Below, piece after piece: positions 39,984 to 48,552 of a stretch of DNA of 64,000 bases; position 1 is the first letter of the stretch; every line of letters starts with the position of its first letter. The DNA is from Candidatus Lindowbacteria bacterium RIFCSPLOWO2_12_FULL_62_27. Lineage in GTDB: Bacteria > Lindowbacteria > 2-12-FULL-62-27. The position numbers and the translations under genes were made by a program. The stretch spans positions 62,001-126,000 of the forward strand of contig MFPR01000030.1 in NCBI GenBank assembly GCA_001784175.1, read 5' to 3'. Below the pieces are notes generated by a model, which was not told where the DNA came from, did no database searches, and saw nothing but the letters and a program-made list of their open reading frames with translations.

Positions 39984-41170
39984 GATCGGCCTTTCGGTCG
40001 GCGATTCTCCTGGCCGTTCTGATCGCGCTGATCGCGACCTACCGGAAACTCAAGGTCGAAGAGCAACAGGCGCGCGCCGGGAAGGCGGACGCGCCCGCGG
40101 CGACGCTGGCAGATCGAATCCGGACGTTGCCCGAACCGCCGTCTACCTGGCGTCTTCTGGAAACCGCGCCGGACGAAATGAACCTCGACGACCTCCCGGA
40201 CGTTCGGGACGCGGTGATGGAGCTGCTGGAGTCGGCGCAGACGCGGGTGACATTCGAAAGTTATTTCCTGAAAAAATCCCTGGGCCGGCCCGCCCGGTGG
40301 TTGCTGGACGCGCCGGGCCGCGGCATCCACGTGCTCGGCGTCGTGCATCCGAACCCGATGAGCGACGCGCCGTTTCTCGACGAACTCCGGGCTGCGGGCG
40401 CTCAGATCATCGAACGCGATTTCGCGCCGCTCGGGGGCAATCCGGGAGATGGATACATCCACGCCAAATTCATCATCGCCGACGGCGCGCGCGGATATCT
40501 CGGCAGCGCCAACCTGGGCGCGGCCGCGATGACGGCCAACCGCGAGATGGGACTCTACTTCGAGGACGCCTCCATCGCCCAGACGCTGGAACTCATGGCC
40601 GGGTTCGACGCCGGCCAGATCAGCAAGGGCCTGTCGGCCGACATCCACACCGCCGTGCTGCTCCAGGGGGCGGCCGACGGATTTGCGGTGGAGGGCCTGC
40701 CGCGCTGCGAGGAGGGCATCGCGGCGCTATGCGACCTGGCCGAGCGCGAGATCGACATCATGATGTTCACGTTCAGCCACCAGTTCGGCCACTACGCGGC
40801 GATCGCCAGCCCCGTGCGCGCGGCGATCCGGCGCGGCGTGAAGGTCCGCCTGATCCACGAGTCTTCGACGATGCGCGAATTGCAGGGCGTCGCGCCGACG
40901 CTGAAGGACATGCGCCAATGGGGCGTGGAGATCCGCCTCGCCGACCTTTCGACGCTGGGCGGCCGGCCAAAAGGCCAGTATCACGCCAAGGCGATGCGGG
41001 TGGACGACGAGTACGTCATGATCGGCAGCAACAACTGGACCGACGCCGGCTCGCACGAAAACCGAGAAACCGCGCTGATCGTCCGGTCCAGACACATGAC
41101 GGGACAGTTCATCAAGCGCTTTAGCGCCGACTGGCGCGCCACGCACGTGATCAAGCCGTACGTGCATTAG
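39980..41170 (+). CDS. Phospholipase D-like protein (cardiolipin synthase-like)
   Basis: 396 residues, GTG start overlapping the upstream stop. An N-terminal membrane anchor (AFRSAILLAVLIALIATY) is followed by two PLDc domains. Both HKD motifs are complete: YIHAKFIIADGARGYLGSAN (HxKx4D, about residues 157-176) and QYHAKAMRVDDEYVMIGSNN in the second half. Such enzymes hydrolyse or transfer phosphodiesters (phospholipids or DNA) through a His-phosphoenzyme. The anchor suggests action at the outer face of the inner membrane. Its stop codon overlaps the stop of convergent lysS. Confidence 0.9.
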   Translation: MRSAFRSAILLAVLIALIATYRKLKVEEQQARAGKADAPAATLADRIRTLPEPPSTWRLLETAPDEMNLDDLPDVRDAVMELLESAQTRVTFESYFLKKSLGRPARWLLDAPGRGIHVLGVVHPNPMSDAPFLDELRAAGAQIIERDFAPLGGNPGDGYIHAKFIIADGARGYLGSANLGAAAMTANREMGLYFEDASIAQTLELMAGFDAGQISKGLSADIHTAVLLQGAADGFAVEGLPRCEEGIAALCDLAEREIDIMMFTFSHQFGHYAAIASPVRAAIRRGVKVRLIHESSTMRELQGVAPTLKDMRQWGVEIRLADLSTLGGRPKGQYHAKAMRVDDEYVMIGSNNWTDAGSHENRETALIVRSRHMTGQFIKRFSADWRATHVIKPYVH

Positions 41171-43014
41171 GCGTATTCGATTGGGATGTCAATGTTACAT
41201 TGTTGCAGAATGACCCTCGGGTCGGCTTTCTCCGCGCTCACCCGTTTCATGTAGGTTTTCCCGTCGTCCAGCGTCACGGTGAATTCGATGACGCCGCCAT
41301 CCTGCGTCTGATGGGAGGCGGCGCGGATGGTTTGGATCTTCGATTTTTCTTTTGACAGCCATCCTTCGAAGGCTTCCGGCGAAACGCCCGTGTCGCGCCA
41401 GAACTCTATTTGGTCGAACGGCACTTCCTTGAACCGCGCGATCACGAACTCCCGGTCGAGAAACGCCAGGAAGCTGCCCGCTTTCGGGCCCGACTCGCGG
41501 TCCAGCAGCGTCCGGTAGATGGACTGGAAGGCCGGCGGCTGGTCGATCGGGGTCAGGCGCGCGGCGTCAAAGATTGCTTTCTGAAGCGCCGTGTCCGACC
41601 ACTCGGCCTTGGGCAGGGCGTCCGCCAGGACGCGCAAAAATCCCCGCTGGGCCGGCGTGAGCGACGCGGCGCGCGCCGGCAGAGTTGACAGCAGCCGCAT
41701 CTTCTCCTCCTCGGCCGCGTAGCGGTCCAGCCAATAGCGCGCGGCCTGGACGCGGCGGTCGAGATGCCGGCGCTCGGCCGGAGAGAGCGGCGCACCCTTG
41801 CGTTTTTCGACTTCGGCCACAAGATCCATGTGCGGCATCTGGACCAGCATGATGACGATGTGGAAATTTTCCGCGTAATAGTCATTCTCGGACTTGACCT
41901 CGGAGAGCCGGTAGACCAGTTTCTCGTCCTCGATCGCCTTCGGATCATGAAAGGCCCGGTGGTGGGCGCGGTCAAAGTCGTTGAAGAGTTTCACGATGAA
42001 TTCCTCATCCAGCGTCACGTTCAGCGGCCGGTTGGGTTGCGTTCTCAGGATCAAGAAGCGCAGGACCTCCGGCGGCAGGAAGTCCGCCATTTCGCGGGCC
42101 ATGGCGCCGATTCCCCGCGACGAGCTCATCTTGGCGCCGCCGACCAGGAAAAATTCGTAAGGGATGTTGACCGGCGGCGACAGGCCGAAAATTTCCCGGA
42201 GGCACGCAGACGAAACATCCCGCGCGCCGCCCCGGGTGTTGTGGTCCTTCCCCGCGCCCTCGATCGTCACCGGGAATGTCCGCCACTTGGCAACCCACTC
42301 GAGCTTCCACGGAAGTTTGCCACGGCCGTCGAACGGCGAGACTTTCCCGCGATGCCCGCATCCGCGCGCCCATTGGACGAGGTCGGGCCGGCAGACGTAC
42401 TCGACCTCCTTGCCGTCATAGGCCGTGACTTCCGTCGTGCCGAGCCGCCCGCACTTCTCACAGATCGCCTGAAACGGATACCACGTTTCGGACCGTTTCG
42501 ATCCGCTGACCTCGAGATAGACGCGGCGCACAACGTCCGCGCGCCGCAGGATCGCGTCGATCACTTCGTCGAATTTGCCCGAACGGTACAGGTCCCGCAT
42601 CCGATAGGGCTCGGCCTGAACGCCCAGTTCGGCGAACACGTCAAAGAATTCCCGGATGTAATGCTCCGCCATATCCGATGCGGCGGATCCGGGAGGCGGC
42701 GGCACGTTGCAGAGGGGCGCGCCCAGATATTTTTCAAAATGTTCCCGTTCCGCGTCGCCCGCCGGGATTTCGTCCAGCGGATCGTAATCGTCCACTCCGA
42801 ACAAAAACCGCGCCGGAACGCCGCGGCTCTTCAGGACGCGGAACACCGCATCGTGAATGATCACGCCCCGGAGCGCCCCGACGTGAACCCGGCCGGAGGG
42901 AGTTTTGGAGTCGTTGATGATCTGAGGTTCAGCGCCTCGGATTTTGGCGGCAATGTCGGAAAACCACATATGGACCGAACCTGTCTCCTTTCTACAGTTC
43001 TCCAGCGCCGCCAT
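41167..43014 (-). CDS. lysS: Lysyl-tRNA synthetase, class I
   Basis: 615 residues from ATG 43014. It charges tRNA-Lys with lysine and ATP. Class I signatures: the HIGH-like TPSGRVHVGALRG (about 38-50) and KMSSS (295-299). A CEKCGR...CRPDL...CGH cluster near 185-221 looks zinc-binding. The class I form is the archaeal type, also found in spirochaetes and scattered bacteria; most bacteria use the unrelated class II enzyme. ATG 43014 has a TACAAT box 6 nt upstream and no Shine-Dalgarno, suggesting a leaderless mRNA; ATG 42969 (MWFSD) is an alternative with a poorly spaced AAAGGAG. Divergent from the candidate ncRNA. Confidence 0.93.
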   Translation of the reverse strand: MAALENCRKETGSVHMWFSDIAAKIRGAEPQIINDSKTPSGRVHVGALRGVIIHDAVFRVLKSRGVPARFLFGVDDYDPLDEIPAGDAEREHFEKYLGAPLCNVPPPPGSAASDMAEHYIREFFDVFAELGVQAEPYRMRDLYRSGKFDEVIDAILRRADVVRRVYLEVSGSKRSETWYPFQAICEKCGRLGTTEVTAYDGKEVEYVCRPDLVQWARGCGHRGKVSPFDGRGKLPWKLEWVAKWRTFPVTIEGAGKDHNTRGGARDVSSACLREIFGLSPPVNIPYEFFLVGGAKMSSSRGIGAMAREMADFLPPEVLRFLILRTQPNRPLNVTLDEEFIVKLFNDFDRAHHRAFHDPKAIEDEKLVYRLSEVKSENDYYAENFHIVIMLVQMPHMDLVAEVEKRKGAPLSPAERRHLDRRVQAARYWLDRYAAEEEKMRLLSTLPARAASLTPAQRGFLRVLADALPKAEWSDTALQKAIFDAARLTPIDQPPAFQSIYRTLLDRESGPKAGSFLAFLDREFVIARFKEVPFDQIEFWRDTGVSPEAFEGWLSKEKSKIQTIRAASHQTQDGGVIEFTVTLDDGKTYMKRVSAEKADPRVILQQCNIDIPIEYA

Positions 43015-43020
43015 ATTAAT

Positions 43021-43026
43021 ATTGTA
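43021..43026 (-). promoter_or_regulatory. -10 box of lysS
   Basis: TACAAT on the minus strand, 6 nt before the lysS ATG, in an AT-rich patch (43013-43037) that could also drive the plus-strand ncRNA. No good -35 was found at 17 bp. Confidence 0.45.
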
Positions 43027-43039
43027 TATATATATAAGG

Positions 43040-43326
43040 AAAGCCCGATTTGGATCGTTTCTGGTTGCATCCCGGGCCTCCTGCTGGTACGCTCCGCGTA
43101 CACTAGAAAGGAGGTGGTCCCAGCCTTGAGTAGAACAAACACGACCAGTGAGGTGCCTGAACGTTAGGCTTTCCACCTGACCTTTCACAACGGTAGCCGT
43201 CAGGTGGGTCGGCCGCGCAAGCGGCCGTCGCCTTGCGGAATTCAAACAGGTTACCGGACCCGGAAGCCCCCCGGCACAGGTCACCGGGGGCGGCCTCACT
43301 GGCCGAAAAAGCTTCTGGGTTTTTTT
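43040..43326 (+). ncRNA. Candidate structured ncRNA with 16S rRNA 3'-end complementarity
   Basis: Between divergent lysS and a convergent gene, this ~285-nt stretch has no credible long ORF but folds strongly. Stems: GTACGC/GCGTAC (43087-43101); CCACCTGAC/GTCAGGTGG (43173-43181 / 43199-43207); CGGCCGC/GCGGCCG on a GCAA tetraloop (43210-43227); CCCCCGG/CCGGGGG (43268-43274 / 43284-43290). It ends in a 9-bp closing stem followed by T7. At 43104-43120, TAGAAAGGAGGTGGTCC can pair with all 17 nt of a typical 16S 3' end (one G-U). A 13-codon frame (TTG 43126 to TAG 43167, or from GTG 43114) follows. It does not look like tmRNA, RNase P, SRP or 6S RNA to me. The 5' end is approximate. Confidence 0.6.
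43259..43326 (+). terminator. Multibranched intrinsic terminator of the ncRNA
   Basis: CCCGGAAGC (43259-43267) pairs with GCTTCTGGG (43311-43319), enclosing two further hairpins, and is followed at once by seven T residues (43320-43326). It lies 24 bp from the stop of the convergent 43351-44610 gene. Confidence 0.75.
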
Positions 43327-43350
43327 ATGCCCGCAGGCAATTTCCAGCCC

Positions 43351-44610
43351 CTACCCCGGCAGGCGGCGGCGGATGATCTCTTTGATGCGATCCGGCACGC
43401 AGGGATTCAACACAAGCTTCTCCATCGCCTCCGCCTGGTCGATCTTGTCACGGATGAGCCACGCGACCACCGGCGGGTCCAGTTTCTGGCGCACGAGAAC
43501 CAGGAGGTCGGCCATTGAAATGAGTTTATACCGGACAGCCACGTTCTCGACCGCGGCCGCGTCCGCCAGCTCGTAACAGGCGACGTGGGGATCGAGCGCG
43601 GCGTCCTCCTCAGGCGCCACCGGTTCCGGCGCCGCGCTTTCGCGGGTGAGGTGATGGGCGTAATCGGTGACGAACTCGCCGAGCCGGGCGACGGCCACAT
43701 CGAGGAGTTCCGGTTTCGACATATCCGCGTATTCGGTTTCGATCTCGTTCAATTCGTCCTCCAGGTGCGGCTGGTCGGGGGGGATGCGGCCATGCAGGTC
43801 GAGGATCAGTTTTTTGCAAGCCGACCGTTTCATGTCCATCTCGCGCTTGACGATGCCCTCGATCAACATCTTGATTTTGTCGTCCGTCAAATCCTTTTCC
43901 GCCGCCGCGCCGATGAAAAAAACGTCCGTGAAAAACCGGAACGTCAGGAGCCGGATGAGAAAACGGATGATCTTGTCGAAGATCGGCGCGAACCGGTAAT
44001 CGATTTCGTCGATCGCGTCCTGGCAGAGCTTGATCCGCTTCAACTTCTCCTCCGGCGACATCGGCGAGAGCTCCAGGAGGCCCATGGCCTTGTTGAAATG
44101 CTTCTTGGCCAGCGCGAAGTTGTCCATCACGCCCTGTTCGCCGCGGAGGTACCGGAACACGCCGGCGTTGAGGTGGGCGTCGGCCGTGTTGGATTTGGCG
44201 GATTCGAAAAAAAACTGCTCGGCCACCGCATCCTTGCCCCACCGGTGATACAGCGCGCCCAGCATCTGCAGGTCCTCCGGCAAAAGAAACGTCGCGTTGA
44301 TTTCGTCGATGATGTAGAGGGGAATCTCGCTGATGAAATGGAGCGGCCGGCATTCGGGTTTGGTCCGGTACTTCTGCCAGATCGCCTTGTTCAGTTTCTC
44401 GTATTTCCGGATCAGAACATTCCCCAGCCCGTCCTTGACGGTCTCCACCAGCCGCGGCGTCTGGCCCTCCACGTTGATCTTCTTGTCGAGATAGGACCGG
44501 TCGGCAAGAATGAAGAGATTCACCGCGTCCTTCGCCGCCGGCGCCTCCTCGGGCGATTCCTGTCCCGTCGATTGTGGTGGCACACCTGGTTCCGCTGCTT
44601 CCTGAGCCAT
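43351..44610 (-). CDS. Hypothetical protein with TPR-like helical region
   Basis: 419 residues from ATG 44610; the longer open frame upstream of it overlaps the divergent cyclase and is a shadow. The protein is mostly helical. After an acidic low-complexity start (SPEEAPAAKDAV) come TPR-like segments (LQMLGALYHRWGKDAVAEQF, SNTADAHLNAGVFRYLRGEQ), a hydrophobic patch IIRFLIRLLTFRFF, and coiled-coil-like stretches. The C-terminus (DKIDQAEAMEKLVLNPCVPD) is reminiscent of degenerate helical repeats. No family recognised and no signal peptide. It shares a ~100-bp divergent intergenic region with the cyclase gene. Confidence 0.75.
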   Translation of the reverse strand: MAQEAAEPGVPPQSTGQESPEEAPAAKDAVNLFILADRSYLDKKINVEGQTPRLVETVKDGLGNVLIRKYEKLNKAIWQKYRTKPECRPLHFISEIPLYIIDEINATFLLPEDLQMLGALYHRWGKDAVAEQFFFESAKSNTADAHLNAGVFRYLRGEQGVMDNFALAKKHFNKAMGLLELSPMSPEEKLKRIKLCQDAIDEIDYRFAPIFDKIIRFLIRLLTFRFFTDVFFIGAAAEKDLTDDKIKMLIEGIVKREMDMKRSACKKLILDLHGRIPPDQPHLEDELNEIETEYADMSKPELLDVAVARLGEFVTDYAHHLTRESAAPEPVAPEEDAALDPHVACYELADAAAVENVAVRYKLISMADLLVLVRQKLDPPVVAWLIRDKIDQAEAMEKLVLNPCVPDRIKEIIRRRLPG

Positions 44611-44706
44611 GACAGAGGAGAGGATACCAAAAACCGGCGTCAAATGTGAATGTGCGCGGATATTTTTGACTTCCGCAGGACGCATCCGCATGGGATGATC
44701 GGTCCA

Positions 44707-47700
44707 ATGGCAGAGACACGCGTATTCAGTCCCTTCATTCCGCCTCATCTTCTGCGGGAGCTTTCGGCGGGTCGCACGGCCCTGGAAGGAGACCGCGTCC
44801 TGGAGGGGGCGTTTCTGTTTTCGGACATATCCGGATTTACGGCCCTGTCCGAAAAATTGTCGGCCGCAGGCGCGGAAGGTGCCGAACGGATCGCGCACGA
44901 GATCAACCGGTGTTTCGATCCGCTCCTGAACCTGATGGACCGGCATGGCGGCAGTGTTCTCCGATTCGGCGGCGACGCGCTCCTGGTCTATTTCCCGGAA
45001 TCCGACGGCCTGTCCTGCCGGCACGCCCGGGCGGCGGCAAGCGCTGTGGTTCGAACCGTCACGACCATGAAGCCGGTGGAGACGCCGGGCGGGGCTGTCA
45101 AGCTCGGCGTCAAGGTCGGGCTGCACCGCGGACGTATCTTGGGCTTCGTCGCCCGGCTGGACAACACGCGAACCGAATACGTGACGCTCGGCGCCGCGCT
45201 GAACCGGCTGGCCGAATGCGAATCGGCGGCCGAGCGTGGGCAGGTGGTCGCGTCGGCTGATTTTCGGCGTGAGATCGGCGCGGGGAATCCACAAGAGTTG
45301 GATCGGCTGAGCCGGCCCGCGCGCCGTTTGGGTTCGGCGCCGAATATCACGCCAGCGAAACTGACGGGGTTTCTCCCCGCCCCGATTGCGGCCCGGCAGA
45401 CGCTCCTCGGCGAGCAGGCGGCGTGGCTGGCCGAAATGCGGCGCGTGACGGCCATGTTCATCAATGTCGATGGACTCGGCCGGCTGGCCGACCGGGCGGT
45501 CGCGCAGATACGGAGTGGAGACATCAACGCCGGGCGTGCGATCGTCCGGCAGATGGAATCATACTTTGCGGCCGTTCACGCCATCGCCGCCCTGCACGGC
45601 GGGTTTTTCTTCTCCACGGATTTGTACGACCACGGGGACAAGGTCATTTGTGTCTTCGGCGCGCCCGTGAGTCACGAGCGCGATGAGGAACACGCTGTCG
45701 ACGCGGCGAGGGACATTGCGAAGCTGCCCGAAAAAATGGGAATGCCGATCCGACAGCGCATCGGATTGAACAGCGGCCAGGCGTTTTGCGGGCTCATCGG
45801 CAACCGGCAGAGACGCGTCTATACGGTCATGGGAGACACCATCAACACGGCCGCCAGATGCATGTCGGCGGCGAGATGGCGGCGCGACGGCGCTGAAATC
45901 CTCACGCACGAAAACACGCTGGCGCGAACCCGCGGGCGGTACACGGGAACGCGGCGCGCGTTTGCGGCCAAAGGCAAATCGAAACCGGTTCCCGTCATGT
46001 CCGTGCGGGGCGAGCGGCCGTCCGCCGACATGGGCGTCGATTCGGGGCTGATCGGGCGGGACGAAGAGCGCCGGCGGATCGAATCGATGTTCGCCTCCGG
46101 AAAAGGATTCATCCTCGATCTGGCCGGAGACGCCGGGGTCGGCAAGAGCACCCTGCTCCGGTTCGCCGCCAAACTCTGGCAGACCGAAGGCGGCCGCGTC
46201 ATCGCGGCGGATTGCCTGCCGGTCGGCGCGACCGCGCCTTTTTTCCCGTGGCGCCGGGCGCTGTGGAATTATTTTTCGTTCGGCGACGATCCCGATCCCG
46301 CCCGTGTCCGGCGGGCGCTCGGGGAACTCGGAGGCCTCGCGCCGGACGATGCGGCGCTGGTGGCCGAGATGATCGGCGTCGAGATCGGCCGCCGGCCGCC
46401 GCCGCTCGACCCCAAACAGGCGGTCGAACGCCGGCTCGCGATACTTCGCCGGATCGTCGAGCGCGACCCGCGGGCGCTCTGGGTCTTCGAGGACGTCCAC
46501 TGGCTCGACGCGAACTCGGTGGACCTCCTGCGCCGCCTCGCAAAGGATCGCGCGCCCTGCCGCGTGATGGTCACGCACAGGCCCGGCCAGGAGATTTTTG
46601 ACGCGGGAGCGCCGGCGACGTCCCTGGGATTAAAACCATTCGGATTGAAAGAGTCCGGCGAGCTGGCCACCCGGATGCTGGGCGCGCGCGCTCTTCGCGA
46701 GTCGACGCTGGAGTCGCTGCACGCCAAATCGGAAGGCAACCCTTTTTATCTGGTGGAGCTGTACCGCTGGATTCTGGAACGCGGTGCGGAGTCGAGCATC
46801 CCGGACTCGATCAGTGCCGTCCTGCAGAGCCGCGTCGACCGGCTGCCTGACATTGACCGCGAGACGCTTCGGGCCGCCGCCGTCATCGGCAGGGGTTTCT
46901 TTCGCGATCTTCTGGCGGACGTGCTGCCGGTACGGGTGACGCAGGAGAAATTGAGGGAAATTCTGGGCCGGCTGGAGACCTCGGATTTTGTGCGGCTTCT
47001 GGGCGGGAACCAGTATGAATTCCGCCACGTCCTGACGCAGGAATCCGTCTACGAATCGATGACCACGGACCTCCGGCGGCGCCTCCACGGGCAGATCGCA
47101 CGCAGGCTCGAACGGCGCAAACAGGCCAACCACGTTCTGCTGGCGCATCACTTCGATCGCGCGGGGGTCGGCCCCAGCGCCATCGAGCATTTGGAGTTGG
47201 CCGGGCGGCAGGCCCAGAAAGTGTACGGCAATGACGACGCGATTCGCTGTTATTCGCGGGCCATCGACTGGCTCCAAAAAGAATCTGCGGTCCGGCAGAG
47301 GCTTCGCAAGCTCGCGGAGATTTTTCTCCGCCGCGCGGATGCGCACAAGGCCATCGGGCGCTTCGCGCAGGCCCGGGCGGACTGCATGGCCGCGGAGCGG
47401 ATCCATCTGAAAACGGCCGACATGGTTTCCGCAGCGCTCGCCAGAGACGCCGCGGGCGTGTGTCTTCAGCGGGAAGGCCGGCACCGCGAGGCGCACGCCT
47501 GTTCGGAGCAGGCGCTCCGGAGACTGCGGCGCGCCGGCTCGCCGCCCGAGGCGCTCGCCCGATGCCTCAACAGCCTGACCATCGCCAACTGGTATTCCGG
47601 CCGGACGGCGCTCGCGATCGAATACGGCGAGGAATCCATCCGCATTCGCCGCCGGCTCAAAGACCCAAAGCAACTCTCGCTGGGACTCTTTGCCCTTGGA

Positions 47701-48552
47701 AAAGCCTATACGGTCGTCTGCGATTTGTCCCGGGCGGTTTCCTGTTTCGAGGAATTGCACGCCGTTTCAAAACGGACGCGGGACGTGCCGGGGATCGCCT
47801 ACGCGCTCGACGGGCTCGGCCAGTGCAACCGGAAGCTGGGACGGCTGGGTCTCGCTCTTCGACAGCACCGCGAATCGTTCCGGTTGCGGGAAAGCGCCGG
47901 CAACCGGCGTGCGCTCGCCTATTCGTGCCTGAACGAGTCCCTCACGTATCTGACGCTCGGCCTGCCGGTGCGCGCGCTTCCGCATCTTGAACGGGCCGAA
48001 CAGTTCTTGAAGGAGACAGACGAGGAAAATCTCGTGGGGGAATTGTGGCGATACCGCGGCATGGCCGCGCTCGAGTCGAACCAGCCGTATCGCGCCGCCA
48101 TCTGCCTCGAACGGGCACTGCGGATCGCCCAGTCGACGGGATTTCTGGAATCCGAAGTCAACACCCTCGCGCCGCTGGCCCGGGCGACATCGATTCTCGG
48201 CGATCAGGTGCGCGCCGCGGCGATTTGCGACCGGCTTAGCGACATGGCCCGGGCGGCAAGGATCGTGGACCATTGCGTGTGTGCCGATCTGATCGTCGGC
48301 GAAATCGCCGCGCGGCAGGGGGACACGCGCCTCGCGGAAGAGTCGCTGCGGGCGGCGGCCGAGGCCGCGGCCCGGCATGAATTCTGGCCGCTGTTTCTCG
48401 AGATTGCAGAGCGCTGGACGAAATGGTTTCCCGCGCTGCCGCAGCCGGACGGCCTGCCGCCGCTGGACGCGGTCCTCCGCCGGCTGAGCGACAGCCTTGA
48501 CGATTTCGACAGGAGAGCCTTCGAAGCCCGGATCAGAGTACTACTCGGTTAG
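44707..48552 (+). CDS. Soluble adenylyl cyclase-like protein (CHD-CHD-ATPase-TPR)
   Basis: 1281 residues. Two class III cyclase homology domains come first. C1 has both metal Asp residues (D40 in FLFSDISGFT, D90 in RFGGDALLVYF). C2 has N253 where the first Asp should be (MFINVDGL), but keeps D311 and GDTIN. Then an AAA/NACHT-like ATPase with P-loop GDAGVGKS (474-481) and a Walker B WVFEDVHWLD, then ~600 residues of TPR repeats. This is the layout of mammalian sAC (ADCY10) and its bacterial relatives, in which one pseudosymmetric active site forms from C1 and C2. It should make cAMP, probably bicarbonate- or signal-regulated. ATG 44707 lacks a Shine-Dalgarno; a TGG-GATGAT extended -10 ends 7 nt upstream. 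Its stop overlaps the convergent gene by 12 bp. Confidence 0.88.
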   Translation: MAETRVFSPFIPPHLLRELSAGRTALEGDRVLEGAFLFSDISGFTALSEKLSAAGAEGAERIAHEINRCFDPLLNLMDRHGGSVLRFGGDALLVYFPESDGLSCRHARAAASAVVRTVTTMKPVETPGGAVKLGVKVGLHRGRILGFVARLDNTRTEYVTLGAALNRLAECESAAERGQVVASADFRREIGAGNPQELDRLSRPARRLGSAPNITPAKLTGFLPAPIAARQTLLGEQAAWLAEMRRVTAMFINVDGLGRLADRAVAQIRSGDINAGRAIVRQMESYFAAVHAIAALHGGFFFSTDLYDHGDKVICVFGAPVSHERDEEHAVDAARDIAKLPEKMGMPIRQRIGLNSGQAFCGLIGNRQRRVYTVMGDTINTAARCMSAARWRRDGAEILTHENTLARTRGRYTGTRRAFAAKGKSKPVPVMSVRGERPSADMGVDSGLIGRDEERRRIESMFASGKGFILDLAGDAGVGKSTLLRFAAKLWQTEGGRVIAADCLPVGATAPFFPWRRALWNYFSFGDDPDPARVRRALGELGGLAPDDAALVAEMIGVEIGRRPPPLDPKQAVERRLAILRRIVERDPRALWVFEDVHWLDANSVDLLRRLAKDRAPCRVMVTHRPGQEIFDAGAPATSLGLKPFGLKESGELATRMLGARALRESTLESLHAKSEGNPFYLVELYRWILERGAESSIPDSISAVLQSRVDRLPDIDRETLRAAAVIGRGFFRDLLADVLPVRVTQEKLREILGRLETSDFVRLLGGNQYEFRHVLTQESVYESMTTDLRRRLHGQIARRLERRKQANHVLLAHHFDRAGVGPSAIEHLELAGRQAQKVYGNDDAIRCYSRAIDWLQKESAVRQRLRKLAEIFLRRADAHKAIGRFAQARADCMAAERIHLKTADMVSAALARDAAGVCLQREGRHREAHACSEQALRRLRRAGSPPEALARCLNSLTIANWYSGRTALAIEYGEESIRIRRRLKDPKQLSLGLFALGKAYTVVCDLSRAVSCFEELHAVSKRTRDVPGIAYALDGLGQCNRKLGRLGLALRQHRESFRLRESAGNRRALAYSCLNESLTYLTLGLPVRALPHLERAEQFLKETDEENLVGELWRYRGMAALESNQPYRAAICLERALRIAQSTGFLESEVNTLAPLARATSILGDQVRAAAICDRLSDMARAARIVDHCVCADLIVGEIAARQGDTRLAEESLRAAAEAAARHEFWPLFLEIAERWTKWFPALPQPDGLPPLDAVLRRLSDSLDDFDRRAFEARIRVLLG

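Follow-up and report, generated by a model that had tools for sequence, protein, structure and literature searches.

A conserved RNA gene whose short reading frame is probably translated, and whose peptide appears free to drift, lies in the window analysed here, a stretch of 64,000 nucleotides from Candidatus Lindowbacteria bacterium RIFCSPLOWO2_12_FULL_62_27. The RNA is best regarded as a distant homologue of the actinobacterial small RNA Ms_IGR-5, despite a score below the threshold of that family, and has relatives in about a dozen phyla. Comparison of these relatives supports the homology itself, the start, frame and stop of the mini-ORF, the drift of the peptide, a helix P1 and a weaker helix P0, the promoter and terminator, and the independence from neighbouring genes. 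The evidence suggests an old, overlooked RNA that may act by parking ribosomes and not by making a peptide. That this is a conserved, translated, stand-alone RNA deserves far higher confidence than the full mechanism proposed below.

Extent, relatives and surroundings of the RNA gene

The features of the locus, all on the plus strand, are as follows.

43065-43093 (+): candidate promoter, with a -35-like TTGCAT (43065-43070), a 17-nt spacer and a -10-like TACGCT (43088-43093), from the homologue pattern
43100-43326 (+): predicted RNA of about 227 nt, from 5'-ACACUAGAAAGGAGG... to the terminator T7, with ends inferred; from the Ms_IGR-5 alignment, homologues and fold z
43104-43120 (+): 17-nt complement of the 16S rRNA 3' end and ribosome-binding site of the mini-ORF, from the organism's own 16S, a genome search and homologues
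43115-43119 (+): 5' strand of helix P0, UGGUC, from covariation (z 4.65)
43126-43167 (+): 13-codon ORF, TTG...TAG, MSRTNTTSEVPER*, with frame, start and stop conserved in homologues
43143-43147 (+): 3' strand of P0, GACCA, in codons 6-8, from covariation
43150-43155 (+): GAGGUG, codons 9-10, Shine-Dalgarno-like, 9 nt before the stop codon and 6 nt before the last sense codon
43152-43159 (+): 5' strand of helix P1, GGUGCCUG, at the ORF end, from covariation
43173-43186 (+): internal anti-Shine-Dalgarno-like segment, CCACCUGACCUUUC, pairing with the ribosome-binding site in the predicted minimum-energy fold
43211-43226 (+): GNRA-capped hairpin GGCCGC-GCAA-GCGGCC in the variable middle domain, from fold and sequence
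43247-43255 (+): 3' strand of P1, CAGGUUACC, within the conserved 3' motif AAUYCNAACAGNYACCG
43256-43326 (+): predicted intrinsic terminator, with closing stem 43256-43267/43311-43319, inner hairpins 43268-43290 and 43292-43304, then U7

Transcription probably starts near 43100, because TTGCAT and TACGCT occupy the promoter position seen across the homologues. Among 84 non-redundant homologues, a TTGAC / TANNAT pattern lies at the matching distance upstream of a conserved ACRC..GAAAGGAGG, the ACRC itself standing about 9 nt 5' of AAGGAGG when the homologues are aligned on the AAGGAGG block. In a simple consensus promoter scan of the window, the two hexamers were too weak to be accepted. With a start at 43100, positions 43040-43099 would therefore be promoter and not RNA. 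The initial annotation had placed a structured, terminator-ended plus-strand RNA gene at 43040-43326; the gene stands, as do its GNRA-capped stem and its multibranched closing stem with the T7 behind it, whereas the 5' stem drawn in 43040-43099 gives way to the promoter. The extent is backed by the homologues L040, L042 and others, and the strand 43100-43326 folds at -103.4 kcal/mol (z -4.2). Among homologues the middle domain differs widely, both in length and in sequence, and a search of the 4.39-Mb genome found no second copy.

An earlier statement that the RNA belongs to no known class needs correcting. Rfam gives no RNA match over the locus at gathering thresholds; below them, Ms_IGR-5 (RF02471) scored 31.4 bits (E 1.6e-5 in a 471-base search), with model positions 1-184 aligning at full length to 43100-43328. 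By score the window RNA does not reach membership (at least 45 bits, the gathering score), and it has the 5' ACAC..AAGGAGGUGRUCC, the 3' CAGNCACC block, the terminator and the full-length alignment that mark the family. The same model scored G001 at 40.4 bits and G002 at 31.3 bits, and clear actinobacterial members possess the ORF and P1 as well. Ms_IGR-5 can accordingly be viewed, on these comparisons, as the actinobacterial branch of an old and wide RNA superfamily.

The Ms_IGR-5 model detected homologues in two genomes from the same family as well as in genomes belonging to unrelated families, and it matched 51 of 198 genomes in the phylum of one actinobacterial member, nearly always once per genome. 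A model based on sequence alone, made from six members and covering the first 78 positions, matched 26 of 386 diverse genomes; about 20 of these were judged real by inspection, and several of the non-genuine matches were antisense 16S. Scanning named genomes with a pattern that fixed the ribosome-binding site and GAGGTGSCTGA, and included no stop codon, yielded 94 stretches. The homologues come from Acidobacteria, Actinobacteria, Spirochaetes, deltaproteobacteria, Zixibacteria, Sumerlaeota/BRC1, Wallbacteria, Lindowbacteria, Eisenbacteria, Entotheonella, Gemmatimonadetes and others. Their records are mostly MAGs, and single-phylum occurrences could be binning errors; the overall spread over about a dozen phyla is independent of any one record.

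Two further observations were made on these contigs. A weak match near a tRNA gene (L083:1501-1536) reads GGGAAAGGAGGTGGTGCCC...TTGAGTAGAACACCC, like the ORF start in the window, and ends GAAGTCTAG before a terminator-like hairpin; it may or may not be a homologue. An Acido-Lenti-1 RNA (RF01687) lies at L104:2677-2722, about 2.6 kb from a homologue on the same contig.

Neighbouring genes are common to close relatives only, with none conserved across phyla; in 53 of the 94 loci, the window included, the gene that follows lies on the opposite strand. The conserved co-directional downstream gene expected of a cis-attenuator or leader peptide is thus not found, and the locus has the appearance of a stand-alone RNA gene with its own promoter and terminator. 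A partnership with lysS, which the initial annotation had proposed, was rejected on the same comparison, as the neighbours differ from lineage to lineage. The upstream neighbour in mycobacteria-like genomes is similar to aminodeoxychorismate lyase, which is consistent with ncMSMEG15794c (PMC10454040) adjoining MSMEG_5795, a gene named in a paper on Rv0812.

In the window, the divergent neighbour (41170-42984, minus strand) encodes a lysyl-tRNA synthetase of class I (Pfam tRNA-synt_1f, E 1.9e-87) rather than of the common class II, and the AT-rich TATATATATATA run at 43021-43036 is probably part of that gene's own promoter. A convergent ORF of 647 aa without a Pfam match (43351-45294, minus strand) lies just downstream of the RNA, and 44650-48552 (plus strand) encodes a 1300-aa adenylate/guanylate cyclase - AAA ATPase - TPR protein.

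Ribosome-binding site, mini-ORF and helices

The organism's own 16S gene, of which a single copy was detected, ends GGATCACCTCCTTTCTA, and the RNA carries TAGAAAGGAGGTGGTCC at 43104-43120 (+), which pairs with it over 17 nt with one G-U. This confirms the pairing that the initial annotation had drawn with the 16S tail common in bacteria. RNAduplex gives -30.0 kcal/mol for the complement, compared with -11.6 when AGGAGG is tested instead. With up to 3 mismatches allowed, the window contains one match, an exact one, against 0.12 in shuffles. A search of the 4.39-Mb genome that allowed three mismatches returned, at <3 mismatches, only 43104-43120 and the antisense strand of the 16S gene; the complement is therefore not a chance Shine-Dalgarno sequence, and its description as exceptional was justified. 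The RNA carries the strongest ribosome-binding site of its genome. Across homologues GAAAGGAGGTGRTC is near-invariant, and the wobble position is G in 68% and A in 32%. The 3' half of the complement appears to serve also as one strand of the covarying helix P0, so that the proposed role in 16S pairing keeps its exceptional complement but needs no 16S selection on all 17 nt.

Downstream of this site, homologues have in-frame ATG, GTG or TTG starts and an ORF of 10-17 codons. The stop lies exactly three codons after GAGGTG in 76 of 80 pattern-found loci (49 TAG, 15 TAA and 12 TGA); of the four others, three look like chance matches, and two of those lie within coding sequence. The single apparent departure from the fixed stop is an acidobacterial locus (L138:394-444, minus strand), where TCC replaces the stop after EVAEV, and this could be a frameshift or a sequencing error. 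Actinobacterial members found with the Rfam model have the same ORF, one with ACG or no clear start and a few with ATT or CTG, and the Ms_IGR-5 Rfam consensus also contains it. In all 50 of the profile-found homologues examined, GAGGTG keeps its fixed distance from the stop; the profiles do not force it, although the script sought GAGGTG and obvious 16S-antisense and weak matches had been removed beforehand.

Based on pairs of related members, pN/pS is 1.13 for the N-terminal codons, a rough figure since the pairs are non-independent, and 0.48 for the last three codons, which overlap P1. Outside the RNA helix, this rough figure offers no indication that the peptide is under purifying selection, the selection that a micropeptide would be expected to show. 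Start, frame and stop, by comparison, are kept beyond RNA-level constraint, which suggests that the mini-ORF is translated and its peptide free to drift. The 13-codon frame, which the initial annotation had mentioned only as what follows the complement, is present at 43126-43167 and is more than incidental: the mini-ORF is the most conserved organisational feature of the RNA.

Covariation among the homologues is seen in two helices. P1 pairs the ORF end (GGUGGCUG) with CAG(N)CCACC immediately before the terminator; in P0, UGGUCC or UGAUC from the 3' half of the 16S complement pairs with GGACC or GAUCA in the ORF codons. Covariation reaches z ~7 for P1 (own partners 7.15 versus 5.88 for swapped ones, sd 0.18, in 36 members whose sequence was unforced) and z 4.65 for P0 (91 de-duplicated members), both from permutations that leave some shared ancestry in. 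Within P1, pair 5 occurs as G-C, A-U and C-G, pair 7 as U-A, G-C and C-G, and pair 8 as G-C, A-U and U-A. We take the comparative case for P1 as strong and that for P0 as moderate.

The minimum-energy fold predicted for the window RNA contains neither helix; forcing P1 makes it 4.5 kcal/mol less stable, and forcing P0 and P1 together 7.8 kcal/mol. Segments comparable to the one that sequesters the ribosome-binding site in this fold occur with z > 2 in a minority of homologues (14 of 90), so sequestration was rejected as a universal feature and is treated as a local variant. Near-perfect internal anti-Shine-Dalgarno segments of 11-12 bp, for example GGACCACCTCC, lie between the ORF stop and the 3' motif in L090, L091, L152 and L196, which suggests a lineage-specific sequestering of the ribosome-binding site.

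Ribosome position as the proposed function

We propose that the RNA would load ribosomes through its unusually long Shine-Dalgarno sequence, and that these would translate a frame of 10-17 codons, whose peptide would be unimportant, and terminate at the stop 9 nt after GAGGUG. With the stop in the A site, the anti-Shine-Dalgarno sequence of the ribosome could pair with GAGGUG and hold the ribosome in place. GAGGUG 6 nt before the P-site codon is Shine-Dalgarno-like, with a spacing like that of initiation. Since GAGGUG overlaps P1, its conservation is partly explained without such pairing. The held ribosome would cover the 5' strand of P1, so that P1, and P0 with it, would stay open. The RNA would then alternate between a free state, in which P0 and P1 are folded or, in this genome's version, the Shine-Dalgarno sequence is sequestered, and a ribosome-held state. 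The most likely use would be to sense or titrate free or terminating ribosomes, with the result relayed through a folded or released 3' domain.

The strong start signal, the fixed stop, the drifting peptide and a helix lying under the terminating ribosome together point to ribosome position as the function. It is from these that we infer the holding at the stop, the switch and the regulatory output. We regard the full mechanism, a trans-encoded RNA that parks ribosomes at the stop of its mini-ORF, as evenly balanced between right and wrong. The superfamily as a whole has a reasonable chance of being a new kind of RNA under ribosome control. More tentative, and in our view somewhat improbable as a complete statement, is that these RNAs of about a dozen phyla form a new ribosome-parking class in which a peptide-irrelevant mini-ORF with a fixed stop and an internal Shine-Dalgarno sequence switches folds and thereby gauges or buffers ribosome availability. 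Of the earlier proposal of ribosome sequestering or sensing, or of leader-peptide control, the ribosome-engaging role is supported and the setting linked to lysS is not, the neighbours being unconserved.

A simpler account would make the RNA a decoy, in which antisense pairing to the 16S 3' end sequesters or protects 30S subunits and translation of the frame is incidental. The extreme complementarity, unique in the genome, and the near-invariance of GAAAGGAGGTG in homologues speak for it, but conservation of start, frame and stop while the codons drift indicates that translation matters, and the predominant G at the wobble position is suboptimal for 16S pairing and covaries with an internal partner. 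We therefore think the decoy unlikely. Unlikely to the same degree is an sRNA that acts in trans by base pairing, regulating mRNAs through its middle domain or its freed 3' strand, with the mini-ORF controlling only its stability or availability; a stand-alone, single-copy gene with promoter and terminator fits this, as do the conserved 3' motif and P1 3' strand with its anti-Shine-Dalgarno-like CCACC, whereas the middle domain varies greatly in length and sequence.

An mRNA for a functional micropeptide ending -EVxxx would account for the conserved ORF, the invariant Glu-Val, the constant stop distance and the low pN/pS of the last three codons. The C-terminal constraint overlaps P1, however, the N-terminal codons evolve as given above and the peptide length varies; moreover, GAG is the only codon used for Glu and GTG the only one for Val, a pattern to be expected of nucleotide constraint; it is partly forced by the search pattern yet recurs in profile-found homologues. 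This reading seems to us more doubtful still. A cis-acting leader or attenuator of a neighbouring gene has the classical layout of mini-ORF, structure and terminator on its side, but the frequent opposite-strand downstream gene and the absence of a neighbour common across phyla make it highly improbable. The parking of ribosomes at the stop is thus the reading we prefer. An actinobacterial sRNA of no known function gains relatives in about a dozen phyla, and a universally placed mini-ORF, translated on evolutionary evidence while its peptide drifts, points to a mechanism that lies in the position of the ribosome and not in its product. Genetically tractable carriers, M. smegmatis and Streptomyces, are at hand.

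Comparison with known RNAs

Ms_IGR-5, known as ncMSMEG15794c in M. smegmatis, resembles the window RNA in its 5' ACAC..GGAAGGAGGUGGUCC, in a mini-ORF ending GAGGUG-N9-stop and in the CAGUCACC strand before a terminator with an inner hairpin, and differs from it in a divergent variable domain. Rfam presents the family as actinobacterial, and the structure printed there is without P1. The Ms_IGR-5 transcript has been detected in M. smegmatis (PMC10454040), and expression has been reported in S. lividans (PMC8079986) and S. avermitilis (PMC8780764). Ms_IGR-5 homologues show significant ribosome footprints in Mycobacterium abscessus and M. smegmatis, in a study where footprints were common on mycobacterial sRNAs, even those without a known ORF, and where protection may stem from co-sedimenting ribonucleoproteins (PMC4974804). 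We found no description of an ORF in Ms_IGR-5 in the open-access literature, which is no proof of its absence.

The Caulobacter sRNA CC2171 (RF01867), compared by model match only, shares GAAAGGAGGUGAUCC close to its 5' end, and the match is limited to that stretch and a GC hairpin. It scores 16.5 bits (E 0.25), where membership takes at least 75 bits over the model. As a relative it was rejected: its recognisable matches in relatives are antisense 16S 3' ends (L053 and L056 included), and the rest is unrelated sequence.

Leader-peptide attenuators are like the proposed RNA in that the position of a ribosome on a short ORF controls RNA folding; the window RNA differs from them in being stand-alone, in lacking a conserved gene downstream and in showing neither peptide constraint nor a codon run. 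Dual-function sRNAs such as SgrS and SR1 are sRNA genes with a small ORF that encodes a functional peptide. The window RNA is like SgrS and SR1 in having a small ORF, and unlike them in that its peptide appears to drift neutrally.
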